Shown in pieces: positions 15,869 through 32,119 of a stretch of DNA of 41,469 bases. Below the pieces are notes generated by a model, which saw only the letters and a list, made by a program, of their open reading frames with translations, was not told the DNA's origin and searched no databases. The position numbers and the translations under genes were made by a program. The number at the start of each line of letters is the position of its first letter. The stretch's first letter is position 1. The stretch comes from a bacterium (GTDB lineage: Bacteria; Sysuimicrobiota; Sysuimicrobiia; Sysuimicrobiales; Segetimicrobiaceae), in NCBI GenBank assembly GCA_035703895.1, contig DASSXJ010000169.1, positions 1 through 41,469 on the forward strand, written 5' to 3'.

Positions 15869-16591
15869 TCAGGCGGCGGCCGCCAGCAGGTCCTCGAGCC
15901 GCACCAGGCCCTCGTACAGCGCCCGCCCCACGATCACCCCTTCGAGTCCCATCGCCTCGAGGGGACGCAGGTGCTCAATATCCTCGACCGAGGCAACCCC
16001 GCCGGCAGCGATCACCGGCACGGTGACGCCGCGCAGGAACCGCTCGATCGCGGCCACGTTGGCGCCTCCGAGCGTCCCATCCGGATCGATGTCGGTATAG
16101 ATGATGCGCGGCGCTCCCGCGTCGATGACTTGAGCCGCGGCCGCGGCGGCGGCCGTCCCCGTGCGGGTCACCCAGCCCTCCGTCCTCACTTCGCCGTCGC
16201 GCGCATCGATCCCGACCACGATGCGGTCGCCGAACCGACGGCAGGCCTCCTGCAAAATCTCTCGGCGGGACAGCGCGACGGTGCCGAGGATCACGCGGGC
16301 GGCGCCCGCATCGAGCCACCGCTCGACCGTCGCGAGATCCCGCATCCCCCCGCCTACTTCGACCGGGATGGCCGCCGCCTTGATGAGGCGCTGGATCGCG
16401 TTCGCGTTGGCCTGGGCGCCCGTGAACGCGCCGTCGAGGTCGACCACGTGCAGCCAGCGTGCGCCCGACGCCACCCACCGCAGGGCCGCCGCGGTAGGAT
16501 CGGCATCAAAGAGGAGCTCATGGTCCGCCGCGCCTTGAATGAGGCGCACGCAGCGGCCGCCCCGGACATCAACCGCGGGGAGCACCAACAC
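15869..16591 (-). CDS. hisA: ProFAR isomerase (phosphoribosylformimino-AICAR-phosphate isomerase)
   Basis: Isomerises the ribose of ProFAR to PRFAR. The 240-residue half-barrel repeat protein begins [17 protein letters not shown] (general base Asp8) and has [27 protein letters not shown] and the second phosphate loop IAAGGVAS. Start GTG 16591 has AGGTGGG six bases upstream and overlaps the end of hisH by 23 bases; the long open frame upstream of it has no HisA similarity. The overlap implies coupled translation with hisH. Confidence 0.94.
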
Positions 16592-17195
16592 CGGCGACCC
16601 ACCTGGCGAAGTTCTCCAACATCCGGATCCCGACACCGCCCGATTTCTCGGGGTGAAACTGGGTGGCCCACACGTTGCCGCGGCCGACCACCGCGGCAAC
16701 CGGCCCCCCGTACTCCGCCATCGCGGCGATGAGCCCGTCATCCGCCGGCACCGCATGGTATGAGTGGATGAAGTACACGTGATCGCCGGGGGTGCACCCG
16801 TCGAGCAACGGAGACGGACGCAGAAGTCTCAGGGCGTTCCATCCCATGTGGGGGATCTTCACGCTCCCGGAGAGGCGAACGACCCGGCCCGGGAACAGGC
16901 CGAGCCCGCGATGTACCCCGTCCTCCTCGCTTTCCTCGAACAATAGCTGCATCCCAAGACAAATTCCTAGAAACGGCCGGCCGGAGTCCACAAACGCCCG
17001 GATGCGATCGGCAAATCCCTGGGACCGGAAGCGGGCCATCGCCGGGCCGAACGCCCCGTCCCCTGGAACGACGAGCGCGGCGGCCCCCTCGAGGGGGGCC
17101 GGTTCGTCGATGATGCGGACCGCCAACCCTTGGCGCTCCAGCGCCTTCTGAATGCTCCTGAGGTTCCCGGCCCCGTAGTCCACGACCGCGATCAT
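16569..17195 (-). CDS. hisH: Imidazole glycerol phosphate synthase glutaminase subunit
   Basis: Class I glutamine amidotransferase that feeds ammonia to HisF. The 208-residue protein has [11 protein letters not shown] at the N-terminus, the nucleophile elbow GICLGMQ (Cys79), and QFHPEKS with His180 and Glu182 completing the triad. The last residues run into the hisA start region, so the C-terminus is slightly longer than in many homologues. Its ATG overlaps the hisB stop as ATGA. Confidence 0.96.
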
Positions 17196-17782
17196 GTCAG
17201 GGTTCCCTTAGTCGACGGCACGCCCTGCACCCGCGGATCCAGCCGCACCGCCCGGTCGAGCGCAAGCGCGAGCGCCTTGAACATCGCCTCGATAATGTGG
17301 TGGGCATTCCGGCCGTGCACGAGGAGGATATGCAGCGTGATCCCCGCGTTTGTGGCAAACGCCCTGAAGAACTCTTCGGTCAGTTCGGTGTCGTACTCGC
17401 CGAGCCGCTGCCGCGGCACCGCCACGGCATAATGTAGATACGGCCGCCCGCTCACGTCCACCACGGCGAGCACCAACGCCTCGTCGAGCGGCGCGTGCTC
17501 GGAGGCGAACCGGGCGATTCCGGCCCCATCTCCCAACGCATCCCGGAGCGCCCGCCCGAGCGCGATCCCCACGTCCTCGACGGTGTGATGGGCGTCGATC
17601 TCCAAATCCCCGGAGGCGTTGACGGTCAAGTCGAACCGGCCGTGTCGGGCGAGCTGCGCCAGCATGTGGTCGAGGAACGGCAGACGGGTCGACCCGGTGA
17701 AGGCGCCGCTGCCGTCGAGGTTCCACATCACCTCGACCTGGGTCTCCGTGGTCTTTCGGACCGTCCGGCCGATGCGGCTCAA
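17192..17782 (-). CDS. hisB: Imidazoleglycerol-phosphate dehydratase
   Basis: Dehydrates imidazole glycerol phosphate. The 196-residue protein has the manganese-binding motifs FLDHMLAQLARHG, DAHHTVEDVGIALG and NAHHIIEAMFKALA. It consists of the dehydratase domain alone, with no HAD-type histidinol-phosphatase domain as in enterobacterial HisB. The start is a TTG at 17782 that overlaps the hisD stop (TTGA), with GGGGAGGG about five bases upstream; no ATG or GTG gives a better N-terminus. The open frame continues upstream antisense to nothing recognisable. Confidence 0.94.
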   Translation of the reverse strand: MSRIGRTVRKTTETQVEVMWNLDGSGAFTGSTRLPFLDHMLAQLARHGRFDLTVNASGDLEIDAHHTVEDVGIALGRALRDALGDGAGIARFASEHAPLDEALVLAVVDVSGRPYLHYAVAVPRQRLGEYDTELTEEFFRAFATNAGITLHILLVHGRNAHHIIEAMFKALALALDRAVRLDPRVQGVPSTKGTLT

Positions 17783-19089
17783 TCCGGCCCTCCCCTGGCC
17801 TGAACGGCCAGCACATGCGCGGGGAAGTCCTCGTAGTGCCCCAGGCGCTCGACGACCGGCCGCACTCGCGCCAAGCCTTCCGCGGACAGGTGCGCTACCG
17901 ACGTCGCCTTGAGATAGCTGAGCACCGTCACCCCCGAGGTCACGCGTGCAAACCCGCTCGTCGGCAACGCCGCGGGTACGCCGATCGCGTAGTTGCCTGC
18001 CGAGAACGGCGTGTGCTGACCGAGCAGGATCTCTCCGGCGTTGCGGATGCGCTGCAGCGTCGCATACGGATCCCTCGTCGCGACCTGCAGGTGCTCGGGC
18101 GCATAGAGATTGACGAATGCCACCGCTTCCTCCATCGAGCCGGCGACGATCACCCCACCGTAGTGGCTCATCGCGGTCTGCGCGAACTGACGCCGCTGGA
18201 CCGGCAGTTGGTCCAGATACCGCGGCATGCGCTCGTGGACTTCCGCGGCGAGCGACTCGGCGGTCGTGACCAGAATCGCGGCAGAATCCGCGCCGTGCTC
18301 GGCCTCGTTCAGCAGGTCGAGGGCAAGTCGGTCCGGATCGGCGGACTCGTCGGCCAGGATCATCGATTCGGTGGGGCCGAGGAACGAGAGCAGCCGGACG
18401 CCGTAGGCCTGGACGGCGATCTGCGCGGCGGTCACATACGGATTTCCTGGGCCGCCTAGGAGTTGGACCCGGGGCACGGACGCGGTCCCGCACGCCAGCG
18501 CGGCAATGCCCGCGACGCCGTTGCAGCGGAATACCTGCGACACCCCGAGCAGATCAGCCGCGACCAGCACCGCCGGATCCGCGCTGCCGTCTTGGCGCGG
18601 TGGAAGGACGATGGCGATCTCCTCCACGCCGGCGACGACGGCCGGGGTTACCAGCGTGATCAAGGTCGAGGGAAAGGCCCCTTTCCCGCTCGGAATGTAC
18701 ACGCCGACGCCTTCCACGGGCGTGTATTTGACGCCGGCGGTGATCCCCGGTTCCATCTCCTCAAGCTGGACGCCCGGCGGCCGCAGCCACTCGTTGTACC
18801 GACGGGCCCGCTCGATGCTGCTCGCCAGCGCCGACCGCAGCCCGTCGTCGACCACGTCGTAGGCGCGCCGCATCTCTTGACGGTCGACCCGCAGACGGTC
18901 CGGCGAGAGGGTCACGCCATCGTACCGCTGCGTGTATTCCACCACGGCGGCGTCGCCGCGCTGCCGGACATCCTCGACGATGGCACGCACGTGCGCGACC
19001 CGCTCGGGATCAAACACCTCCACCCTCGACCGCTGCAACATCTGCCGGAGCCGCTCAGGGGGGGCCTGCCCCAACCGAAGAATGTCCAC
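17779..19089 (-). CDS. hisD: Histidinol dehydrogenase
   Basis: Zinc enzyme that oxidises histidinol to histidine in two NAD-dependent steps. The 436-residue protein has VYIPSGKGAFPSTLI, FLGPTESMILADESADPD, LNEAEHGADSAAI with catalytic/zinc-binding residues, YAPEHLQ and the C-terminal zinc His in HLSAEGL. The start is GTG 19089, ten bases after an AAAGGAG. It follows hisG and overlaps hisB. Confidence 0.96.
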   Translation of the reverse strand: MDILRLGQAPPERLRQMLQRSRVEVFDPERVAHVRAIVEDVRQRGDAAVVEYTQRYDGVTLSPDRLRVDRQEMRRAYDVVDDGLRSALASSIERARRYNEWLRPPGVQLEEMEPGITAGVKYTPVEGVGVYIPSGKGAFPSTLITLVTPAVVAGVEEIAIVLPPRQDGSADPAVLVAADLLGVSQVFRCNGVAGIAALACGTASVPRVQLLGGPGNPYVTAAQIAVQAYGVRLLSFLGPTESMILADESADPDRLALDLLNEAEHGADSAAILVTTAESLAAEVHERMPRYLDQLPVQRRQFAQTAMSHYGGVIVAGSMEEAVAFVNLYAPEHLQVATRDPYATLQRIRNAGEILLGQHTPFSAGNYAIGVPAALPTSGFARVTSGVTVLSYLKATSVAHLSAEGLARVRPVVERLGHYEDFPAHVLAVQARGGPD

Positions 19090-19105: not shown

Positions 19106-19759
19106 TTATGCCGATGATCGGGGCCGAGCCGCGGCAGCGGTCCGGAGGCGCTCGACCACCGTCTGCACCGCCTCGGCGCGCGTGCGCAGGCTCACCCGAT
19201 TCACGACGAGGCGGGCGGTCGAGCGAAACACCTCCGCCACCTCCACCAGATGGTTTTCAGAGAGGGTGCGCCCGGACATCACCAGGTCGAGGATGCCGTC
19301 GGCGAGCCCGACCTGTGGGGCCAGCTCCACCGTGCCGTTCAGTTCGATGATCTCCACCGAACGTCCCCGGCTCCAGAAGTACCGTTCTGTCGTGCGGGGG
19401 TATTTCGTCGCGATGCGGATCGGGCTCAGCAGCTCCCACGCCGCCGCCCGTTCCTCCGGGAACGCCACCACCCCCCGGCATGCGCCGAACCCGAGATCGA
19501 CGAGCTCGTACACATCCCGGCCCTGCTCGAGGAGCATGTCCTTCCCGGCGATCCCGAGATCCGCGGCGCCGTGCTCCACGTAGGTCAAGAGGTCCGCGGG
19601 CTTAGCCACGAGCACCCGCACGGTCTCATCGACACACGGCAGGATGAGGCGCCGCGTCGACCGCCAGGCGTCGAAGGTAAGATAGCCTGCCGCCTCGAGC
19701 GTTCGCATCGAGTCCTCCAGCAGCCGCCCAGAGGCGACCGCCACCGTGAGGCCGTTCAT
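19106..19759 (-). CDS. hisG: ATP phosphoribosyltransferase, short form
   Basis: First committed step of histidine synthesis, joining ATP and PRPP. At 217 residues it is the short HisG that lacks the regulatory ACT-like C-terminal domain and needs HisZ. Visible motifs are LTVAVASGRLLEDS, VEHGAADLGIAGKDML, RIATKYPRTTERYF, and ELNGTVELAPQVGLADGI with DLVMSGRT (PRPP loop). Start ATG 19759 overlaps the hisZ stop as ATGA. A longer open frame upstream is the hisZ antisense-frame shadow. Confidence 0.96.
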   Translation of the reverse strand: MNGLTVAVASGRLLEDSMRTLEAAGYLTFDAWRSTRRLILPCVDETVRVLVAKPADLLTYVEHGAADLGIAGKDMLLEQGRDVYELVDLGFGACRGVVAFPEERAAAWELLSPIRIATKYPRTTERYFWSRGRSVEIIELNGTVELAPQVGLADGILDLVMSGRTLSENHLVEVAEVFRSTARLVVNRVSLRTRAEAVQTVVERLRTAAAARPRSSA

Positions 19760-21003
19760 GGCGGCGTGAGGAGATCGGCGAGTGCCACGGAGCGTTCGGG
19801 GCCGCGCGCCTCCCGGACGATCGCGCGCGCTCCAGCCACGAAGACCACGCGGGGCACGCCCGCTGCGATCGCTTCGCGCGCGACTTCGTCCCATGGCCGG
19901 CCGAGAATCTCAACCGTCACCGATAGCTCGCGTTCGCGCAGCGCGCCGGCGAGCCGCAGCGCATCGACGCGGGCGCCGTCCGCAAAGGTCACCGCCACGT
20001 CCGGCGTCCACCCGGACTCCCCGGGGTCGGAGGACGCCAGCACGCGGTCCACCCGCACGGCAAACCCCGTGGCGGGATACGGCGCGCCGAACCCCTCGAG
20101 GAGCCGATCGTACCGGCCCCCGCCTAACAACGAATAACCCAACGCCGAGGTGTGCCCCTCGAACACGATCCCCGTGTAGTACTCGAAGTCTCGAATGATG
20201 CTCAGATCCACCCGCACGATGTCCCCGACCCCGTAGGCGGCGAGCATCTTCATCAAATCCTCAAGATCGCCCAGCACGCGCTCGCTCTCGGGGGTGCCGG
20301 CGAGACGGCGGGCGTCGTGAATCGCGCTGGGGCCGCTCAGGACGGGCAGGTGGGAGAGCGCGTCGGCCCGCGCCGGCGGGATCCCGTACCGGTCGAGGAT
20401 CGCGCGGAGTCCGACGAAGTCCTTTTGATAGAGGAACGCGCGGACCTCCCGGGTCCCCTCATCGGGCAGGGCCAGGCCGTCCAGCATGCCCCGCAGAAAC
20501 CCCACGTGCCCCAGACTGATGGAGCATCCCTGGGTGCCGGACGCCTCGAGCGCCTCCACCGCGAGGGCTACGATCTCCGCGTCCGCTTCCAGGGTGCCCG
20601 CGCCGATCAACTCGCATCCCACCTGAGGAAACTCCCGCAGCCGGCCCGAGCCGGTCTCCGATCCCCGGAAGACCTGGCCGGCGTAGGCGACCCTGAGGGG
20701 CAAGGGATGACCGCGCAGGTGGGTGGTGATGAGCCGCGCGACCGAAGTCGTCATCTCGGGGCGGAGCGCAAGCAGCTCACCACCCCGATCAACGAGTTTG
20801 AAGAGACGGTCCCCCGCCTCCGTGCCCTCGCCGCGGACCAACGTATCGAAGTACTCCATCGTCGGAGTCACCACTTCCCGGTAGCCCCACCGCTGCATCC
20901 GTGTCAGGATGCGGTCGCTCACCTTGCGGGCCCGGGAAGATTCGCCCGGGAGAAGATCCCGCATCCCTGGGGGCACCTGCTGCCAGCGTTCACGCCGCAG
21001 CAT
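19756..21003 (-). CDS. hisZ: ATP phosphoribosyltransferase regulatory subunit
   Basis: Histidyl-tRNA-synthetase-like protein that combines with short HisG to form the active, histidine-sensitive enzyme. The 415-residue protein has class II synthetase-like segments: PPGMRDLLPGE, ALRPEMTTSVARL, FRGSETGSGRLREFPQVGCELIG and LLGGGRYDRLLEGFG. A C-terminal region (about 320-415) resembles an anticodon-binding-like fold, so this is the longer HisZ form. A true HisS is less likely because it sits directly before a short hisG. It is the first gene of the his operon, about 37 bases downstream of the proximal promoter's -10. Confidence 0.92.
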   Translation of the reverse strand: MLRRERWQQVPPGMRDLLPGESSRARKVSDRILTRMQRWGYREVVTPTMEYFDTLVRGEGTEAGDRLFKLVDRGGELLALRPEMTTSVARLITTHLRGHPLPLRVAYAGQVFRGSETGSGRLREFPQVGCELIGAGTLEADAEIVALAVEALEASGTQGCSISLGHVGFLRGMLDGLALPDEGTREVRAFLYQKDFVGLRAILDRYGIPPARADALSHLPVLSGPSAIHDARRLAGTPESERVLGDLEDLMKMLAAYGVGDIVRVDLSIIRDFEYYTGIVFEGHTSALGYSLLGGGRYDRLLEGFGAPYPATGFAVRVDRVLASSDPGESGWTPDVAVTFADGARVDALRLAGALRERELSVTVEILGRPWDEVAREAIAAGVPRVVFVAGARAIVREARGPERSVALADLLTPP

Positions 21004-21039: not shown

Positions 21040-21055
21040 CTTTATCGTGATAAAG
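21040..21055. promoter_or_regulatory. Perfect palindrome over the his promoter -10, candidate operator
   Basis: CTTTATC-GT-GATAAAG: two 7-base arms with a two-base spacer. It covers the -10 (21041-21046) of the proximal his promoter, the ideal place for a repressor. The nearest regulator gene is yerC (TrpR family), about 470 bases upstream; TrpR-family HisR/YerC proteins are reported to control his genes in Gram-positive bacteria. Binding is inferred. Confidence 0.6.
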
Positions 21056-21069
21056 CACTACAGTGTCAA
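21041..21069 (-). promoter_or_regulatory. Proximal sigma70-type promoter of the his operon
   Basis: On the minus strand there is a perfect TTGACA (21069-21064), a 17-base spacer and GATAAA (21046-21041, four of six). Transcription would begin near 21034, leaving a leader of about 30 bases before hisZ. Confidence 0.65.
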
Positions 21070-21082
21070 AGTACACCCGGCC

Positions 21083-21112
21083 ATGGTACCACACGCTCGG
21101 CCGCGCGGTCAA
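21083..21112 (-). promoter_or_regulatory. Distal promoter-like site upstream of hisZ
   Basis: TTGACC (21112-21107), 18-base spacer, TACCAT (21088-21083) on the minus strand. It would give a second his transcript starting about 42 bases upstream of the proximal one and not covered by the palindrome. Match is moderate. Confidence 0.4.
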
Positions 21113-21131: not shown

Positions 21132-21545
21132 CTATGCGGACGCGGCTCGGGTCCGTGAGCGACGGATGAAGACGATGGCGATGGCGAGGCCGGCGATGAG
21201 GGCGAGCGGCGGCGCGGCGTACAGAATCAAGGAAATACCTCCGGGCCCGGGCTCGGCCAGGACGCTCTCCCCAAACTGCCCCACGAAATAGCGAAGGATC
21301 TGATCGGAGGTCTCCCCGGCCTCGAGCTTTTGCCGGATGATCACCTTCATCTCCCGGGCCAGGGCGGAATCGCTCTCGGCCACCGTCTGCCCGGCGCACA
21401 CCGGGCACATCAGTTGCCGGGCGATCGCATAGACGTGATCGTCGAGCGATGCCCCCGACGCCGCCGCGGCCAGGATCGCCCACGCCGCGAGCGCCGTGAC
21501 GGTAGAGAGGAGGACGCGCGTCGCGCGCTCAGCGGCGCGGCTCAC
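21132..21545 (-). CDS. ccmH: CcmH/CycL/NrfF-family cytochrome c maturation protein
   Basis: Thiol-disulfide protein of cytochrome c maturation system I, thought to act on apocytochrome c outside the membrane. The 137-residue product has an N-terminal signal/TM helix (about 11-32), the LMCPVCAGQTVAES motif with the redox Cys pair, and a C-terminal TM helix (about 107-128) followed by arginines, the usual CcmH layout. Start GTG 21545 lies right after GGAGGCGGAGGC and overlaps the yerC end by 17 bases. No other ccm or cytochrome c gene is in the window, so it is an orphan here. Confidence 0.85.
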   Translation of the reverse strand: MSRAAERATRVLLSTVTALAAWAILAAAASGASLDDHVYAIARQLMCPVCAGQTVAESDSALAREMKVIIRQKLEAGETSDQILRYFVGQFGESVLAEPGPGGISLILYAAPPLALIAGLAIAIVFIRRSRTRAASA

Positions 21546-21864
21546 GCCTCCGCCTCCGTCCCTCGACAGGGGCCGCATACCCCATACGCTTCAGCACCAG
21601 GGCGTACCCGTCCGCTCCGTAGGTGAGAAACCGGCGGACGCGACTGATCGTGGCCGATGAGGCTCCCGTTCGGGCGGCGATCTCCTCATAGGTTTTCCCC
21701 TGGTGCAGCATTCGGGCGACCGCGAAGCGCTGCGCGAGGGCCCTGACCTCCCCGATCGTGCAGACGTCCTCGAAGAACCGGTAGCATTCTTCTACGGTGC
21801 GGAGCTGCAAGACCGCCCGAAAGAGGGAGTCGGCCAGAGGACCCCGGAGTTTCGGATTCACCAC
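21529..21864 (-). CDS. yerC: YerC/YecD-family TrpR-related regulator (HisR-like)
   Basis: Small DNA-binding protein of the TrpR superfamily. The 111-residue product contains the YerC core: a helical dimerisation part (LRTVEECYRFFEDVCT), then GEVRALAQRFAVARML and the helix-turn-helix KTYEEIAARTGASSATISRVRRFL, and ends with an arginine-rich tail. Length fits the family (about 100). The start is uncertain: GTG GTG at 21864/21861 comes just after the panE stop without a good ribosome-binding site; an ATG at 21900 would overlap panE. Its place before the his promoters and his operon supports a role as histidine-responsive repressor; the ligand is not shown by sequence. Confidence 0.85.
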   Translation of the reverse strand: MVNPKLRGPLADSLFRAVLQLRTVEECYRFFEDVCTIGEVRALAQRFAVARMLHQGKTYEEIAARTGASSATISRVRRFLTYGADGYALVLKRMGYAAPVEGRRRRREPRR

Positions 21865-32043: not shown

Positions 32044-32119
32044 TGGCGCGCCCGGAGGGATTTGAACCCCCGACCTACGGCTCCGGAGGCCGGCGCTCTA
32101 TCCGCTGAGCTACGGGCGC
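32044..32119 (-). tRNA. tRNA-Arg, anticodon CCG
   Basis: Minus-strand cloverleaf: acceptor GCGCCCG/CGGGCGC, D-arm GCTC/GAGC, anticodon loop CTCCGGA with CCG at 34-36 (reads CGG), T-arm with GTTCAAAT, discriminator G and an encoded CCA (32046-32044). The top pair of the anticodon stem is C27-U43, a mismatch; all other stems pair. Confidence 0.95.

Follow-up and report, generated by a model that had tools for sequence, protein, structure and literature searches.

The his locus and its regulator

The window (the whole stretch of DNA that was analysed, 41,469 nucleotides) belongs to a genome of the phylum Candidatus Sysuimicrobiota. Its minus strand carries, in this order, ilvC, leuA, a cimA-like gene, leuB, panE, yerC, a ccmH-like gene, the candidate operator, hisZ, hisG, hisD, hisB, hisH, hisA, hisF and hisIE. 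The names ilvC, leuA, cimA, leuB and hisH come from reading the translations and from matches in relatives, and those of panE, yerC, ccmH and the other his genes come from family models. The first gene of the his operon, hisZ (19756–21003), matches TIGR00443 with 329 bits, over the cut-off, and is followed by hisG (19106–19735, TIGR00070), hisD (17779–19089, TIGR00069) and hisB, encoding IGPD (17192–17800, PF00475); the starts of hisG and hisB are approximate. The gene at 16569–17195 is called hisH from its place in the operon order and from its translation, read as a glutamine amidotransferase, and the segment 14426–16756 holds hisA, hisF and hisIE (PF00977 twice and PRA-CH/PRA-PH).

The regulator gene yerC (hisR) lies at 21529–21861 and encodes a protein of 110 amino acids. 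An alignment places its start at a conserved GTG at 21861 (VNPKLR) rather than at that of the longer listed open reading frame. The protein scores 136.8 bits against TIGR02531, whose cut-off is 42.2 (E 2.6e-40), and also matches the Pfam Trp_repressor family (E 2.4e-28). The closest solved relatives are 3g1c (E 1.9e-29), 3frw and 3kor. The DNA-reading residues Ala80, Thr81 and Arg84, with a Tyr for Arg69 (TrpR numbering), are present in the pattern TYEEI...SATISR, in which SATISR is the DNA-reading helix, and this pattern is kept across the phylum and in 3g1c and 3kor. There is one copy of yerC in the genome, and the earlier assignment of a YerC/HisR-like regulator of the TrpR family, made from the letters of the window, is well founded. 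The same reading put yerC just upstream of the operon. It is indeed upstream and on the same strand, but it is not directly adjacent: yerC ends the ilv/leu/panE gene run, and a CcmH-like cytochrome c biogenesis gene (21132–21578, minus strand; PF03918, E 1.2e-27), whose listed start lies about 50 nt inside yerC, stands between yerC and hisZ. This arrangement is that of the window's family; in the remaining families of the phylum no ccmH-like gene was seen between the two.

The probable operator core

The palindrome CTTTATCGTGATAAAG occupies positions 21040–21055 and consists of two perfect 7-bp arms around a 2-bp centre (CTTTATC-GT-GATAAAG), exactly as the sequence-only reading described it. 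Symmetry alone is weak evidence, since the window contains seven perfect palindromes of this 7+2+7 geometry; the one at 21040–21055 is the only A/T-rich member in a window of 66% GC. On the his strand the core reads CTTTATCACGATAAAG, and it is assigned as the inverted core of a HisR operator from its match to cacTTTAnnnnnnTAAAgtg and from its conservation before hisZ. According to PMC9413887, cacTTTAnnnnnnTAAAgtg is the motif of most Gram-positive HisR sites, and the motif in Proteobacteria is TrpR-like. The proposed comparison with published HisR motifs turned out favourably: the core and the C/G edges agree exactly, and the outer cac/gtg letters are partly matched.

The site is not scattered through the genome. 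A scan of all 4,384,633 bases for the 16-mer found no second copy with up to two mismatches, and even the bare core TTTAN6TAAA occurs at only four places. In the remaining three no C/G edges were seen; two of them are copies of one repeat beside dehydrogenase-like and hydrolase-like genes and the third is in C122. The candidate operator has no counterpart in the rest of the 4.4 Mb genome, and a wider HisR regulon in this genome, which had been considered, was rejected because the scan gave no second site.

An array of half-sites at 8-bp steps

Two further half-sites, in direct orientation on the minus strand, lie upstream of the core. The first, CTGTA (21059–21063), is 8 bp upstream of the core half-site and corresponds to a column peak at -16; the other, CTTTG (21067–21071), is 16 bp upstream and corresponds to a peak at -24. 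These peaks come from scoring CTTTA and TAAAG at each offset in one sequence per genus from 18 genera. In that set CTTTA half-sites recur every 8 bp, at -24, -16 and -8, and the inverted half-site appears at +3 and weakly at +11. Beyond the core, only the offsets -24 (3.33), -16 (3.17) and +11 (3.22) have more than three of five matches, against a background of 0.96 (sd 0.22), and the outer peaks are spaced exactly 8 bp in each arm. The window itself is without the +11 half-site and has ACGCC there.

The periodicity recurs in a second set of 27 hisZ-proximal cores from further genomes, mostly Bacillota, which were picked by the core alone and share a few members with the 15 sites of a first, weaker test. 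Peaks are again found at -24 (z 9.5) and -16 (z 9.9), with a peak sum reached by none of 2000 flank shuffles, and +11 gives z 2.3 only. A near-perfect array, CTTTAgcgCTTTAccaCTTTAgcagagTAAAG, is present at one locus (L201). On the opposite strand, half-site scores are elevated at -5 and -13 as well, which keeps to the 8-bp register; this comes partly from the shared TA, and it is as dimers placed in tandem and displaced by 8 bp would require. For TrpR, the binding of tandem dimers to operators is documented (PMC8745587), and half-site steps of 8 bp are what TrpR-type tandem dimers have. By analogy, the array suggests that several HisR dimers may sit side by side on the operator as on trp operators. 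The main text of PMC9413887 mentions an 8-bp spacer for TrpR and makes no mention of tandem HisR sites.

The strongest competing explanation is that HisR binds the single 20-bp palindrome only; the outer half-sites, at -16 and -24, would then be remnants or belong to the promoter and contribute nothing to binding. In its favour, the motif as published spans 20 bp, a 20-bp site in poly-G flanks sufficed for binding in vitro, and the outer half-sites fall short of the core in strength. Against this, they are the sole strong CTTTA/TAAAG columns beyond the core, they keep an exact 8-bp register in two phyla, and the signal is lost in shifted registers. Binding confined to the palindrome is regarded as unlikely.

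A variant of the pattern occurs upstream of hisZ in two relatives (L128 and L131, in G001 and G004), with runs like CTTTATCGGTTTAGCGTGATAAAG; here the -16 half-site is a perfect CTTTA and the core has G as its outer letter, which gives the impression of an array moved by one step.

The his promoter

Promoter scanning found only one promoter-like match between 20900 and 22000, TTGACC-18-TACCAT with an extended TG at 21112–21083 on the minus strand. The -35 box TTGACC is at 21107–21112 and the extended -10 box TGGTACCAT at 21083–21091. The pattern TTGAC-N17/18-TAnnnT is present in all 30 his upstream regions aligned on the operator, and the extended TG of TGnTAnnnT is present in 27 of them; the gap from the -10 box to the operator core ranges from 16 to 29 nt. 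The transcription start predicted from the promoter boxes alone is near 21076, which would place the centre of the operator at about +29 in the window and some 18–31 bp downstream of the predicted start across the aligned regions. The core is also downstream of a recognisable -10 box in 26 of the 27 further sites, mostly of Bacillota, with a median gap of 23.5 nt.

The sequence-only reading had instead proposed a promoter with a perfect TTGACA and a 17-nt spacer whose -10 box was covered by the palindrome. The letters are there on the minus strand, TTGACA at 21069–21064 and GATAAA at 21046–21041, the TTGACA overlapping the CTTTG half-site, and in some Bacillota sites the core does lie close to the -10 box (gap 0–11). 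However, GATAAA lacks the final T of a -10 box, the TTGACA is found at that place in this genome only, TTT alone being conserved there in other genera, and the conserved promoter stands further upstream in all 30 relatives. This candidate was rejected on account of the unconserved TTGACA and last T, so that TTGACA-17-GATAAA as the working promoter, with HisR over its -10 box, now appears very improbable. Judged by conservation, the TTGACA and GATAAA letters are parts of putative repressor half-sites at 8-bp spacing.

Sites whose core is near the -10 box tend to have downstream half-sites in place of upstream ones. This is a trend only, with array direction and distance from the -10 box related by rho 0.38 and -0.38 (p ~0.05, uncorrected). 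In two loci of Halanaerobiales type (L192 and L195), the core abuts the -10 box, and additional half-sites are found downstream, at +11 and +19, rather than upstream. A general description, to which we give a slight preference, is that HisR operators may consist in general of three to five CTTTA half-sites repeated every 8 bp, bound by tandem dimers and mostly located just downstream of the start; the array would extend from the inverted core in the direction that brings the start region under cover.

Distribution across the phylum

The comparison covers 43 genomes of the phylum, all in one order. Among them yerC is found in 31 and hisZ, counting strong and near-cut-off matches, in 32; 29 have both and nine have neither, so that 38 of 43 are concordant (Fisher p 2e-5, with kinship and assembly gaps ignored). 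The operator precedes hisZ in every one of the 29 genomes with both genes, and it scores 11–12 of 12 positions in 28 of these; the exception, G007, has a degenerate core with 9 of 12. Two genomes that are 98–99% complete (G019 and G022) have hisZ but no yerC, and no operator at their loci (L221 and L222), and the association of operator and yerC gives a Fisher p of 0.002 with kinship ignored. No T-box was found in the stretch searched of these two loci. One further genome (G021) has the operator while yerC was not found, on a contig that ends about 650 nt upstream of hisZ.

That another regulator uses the site, with yerC merely a neighbour, might be supposed from the position of yerC behind ilv, leu and panE and from the ccmH-like gene that intervenes before hisZ in this genome. 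The site matches the HisR consensus and keeps company with yerC even where the two are more than 1 kb apart (G020 and G032), which makes this supposition hardly credible.

Exact symmetric sites in the phylum are found at his only, except for one within a coding frame in G027, and for this reason HisR would seem to act locally in this phylum, on a single operon; the other matches are mostly asymmetric TGAAG forms. The locus of ANGP1 (now Candidatus Segetimicrobium) and a relative have the same operator sequence (L045 and G018), and the assignment of the window to Candidatus Sysuimicrobiota follows from this. On one contig (C173), a stretch with TTTAATAGGATAAA occurs twice, at 1277 and 2326, with about 1 kb between the copies (L150 and L151).

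The his leader RNA

That the inverted repeat, which does lie within the predicted 5' leader, acts as an RNA hairpin of an attenuator or terminator is the least credible explanation of all, as its loop would be of 2 nt with no U run, the folding of the leader does not surpass that of shuffled sequences (z 0.90), no Rfam match or terminator was found, and the direct repeats, unneeded for RNA pairing, are also conserved. Rfam models gave no T-box or His leader in the his leader, the only match in the window being a tRNA gene at 32047–32119 (minus strand). A 12-codon leader open reading frame with two His codons (MRHVRGRAHAAA, read by eye) was set aside, as it has too few His codons and no terminator.

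Proposed circuit and comparison with known systems

The palindrome is very probably the operator of YerC/HisR, a histidine repressor of the TrpR family, on the promoter of hisZGDBHAF(IE). When histidine is plentiful, histidine-bound HisR dimers would occupy the inverted core at 21040–21055, and the half-sites that follow at intervals of 8 bp, as far as 21071, would probably be taken by further dimers alongside. With the promoter at 21112–21083, the bound dimers would then lie over roughly +6 to +37, where the transcribed region begins, and obstruct RNA polymerase; a fall in histidine would release HisR and allow the his operon to be expressed. The DNA itself shows the family of the regulator, the operator consensus and its retention alongside yerC, the promoter and an 8-bp period; from these we infer that HisR binds here, probably in tandem dimers, that histidine is its co-repressor in this phylum and that its effect is repression rather than activation. 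The histidine circuit of regulator, target operon and operator that had been proposed at the outset is strongly supported by the consensus match, by the single site per genome at hisZ, and by an operator that is present in 29 of 29 genomes with yerC and hisZ and missing in the two near-complete hisZ genomes without yerC.

As described in PMC9413887, the HisR of R. gnavus binds a 20-bp site with histidine and not without it. The system considered here resembles the HisR (YerC) regulons of Firmicutes, Actinobacteria and Synergistetes in that source in regulator family, single copy number and his operon target, and both have the operator core TTTAnnnnnnTAAA with C/G edges. It differs in having one target only, in having no strict operator site upstream of yerC at the phylum loci, which bears on autoregulation, and in its operator, which is described there as a 20-bp palindrome and here belongs to an array with 8-bp spacing that lies downstream of the promoter. 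The taxa given with HisR in PMC9413887 are Firmicutes, Actinobacteria, Proteobacteria, Synergistetes, Dictyoglomi, Elusimicrobia and one Mollicute; Sysuimicrobiota is not among them, and the range of HisR control would be extended to a phylum known from metagenomes. With a single target, the circuit lends itself to testing. What may interest specialists is the half-site array: its presence in two phyla provides a concrete model of HisR binding, in tandem dimers like those of TrpR, that is unseen in the 20-bp motif, and it predicts that assays on isolated 20-bp sites capture affinity and cooperativity incompletely.

Escherichia coli TrpR (PMC8745587) is of the same protein family and has the same 8-bp spacing, and several dimers per operator is the likely mode for both. 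The half-site is CTTTA here and GNACT there, the co-repressor differs, and the TrpR operator motif TGTAcTnGTnnACnAgTACA, compared by eye, is not present at the site. Proteobacterial HisR, with the motif TGTAnTArnnnnyTnTTACA, has the same function on the his operon, but its operator sequence differs and hisR is there the first gene of the operon.
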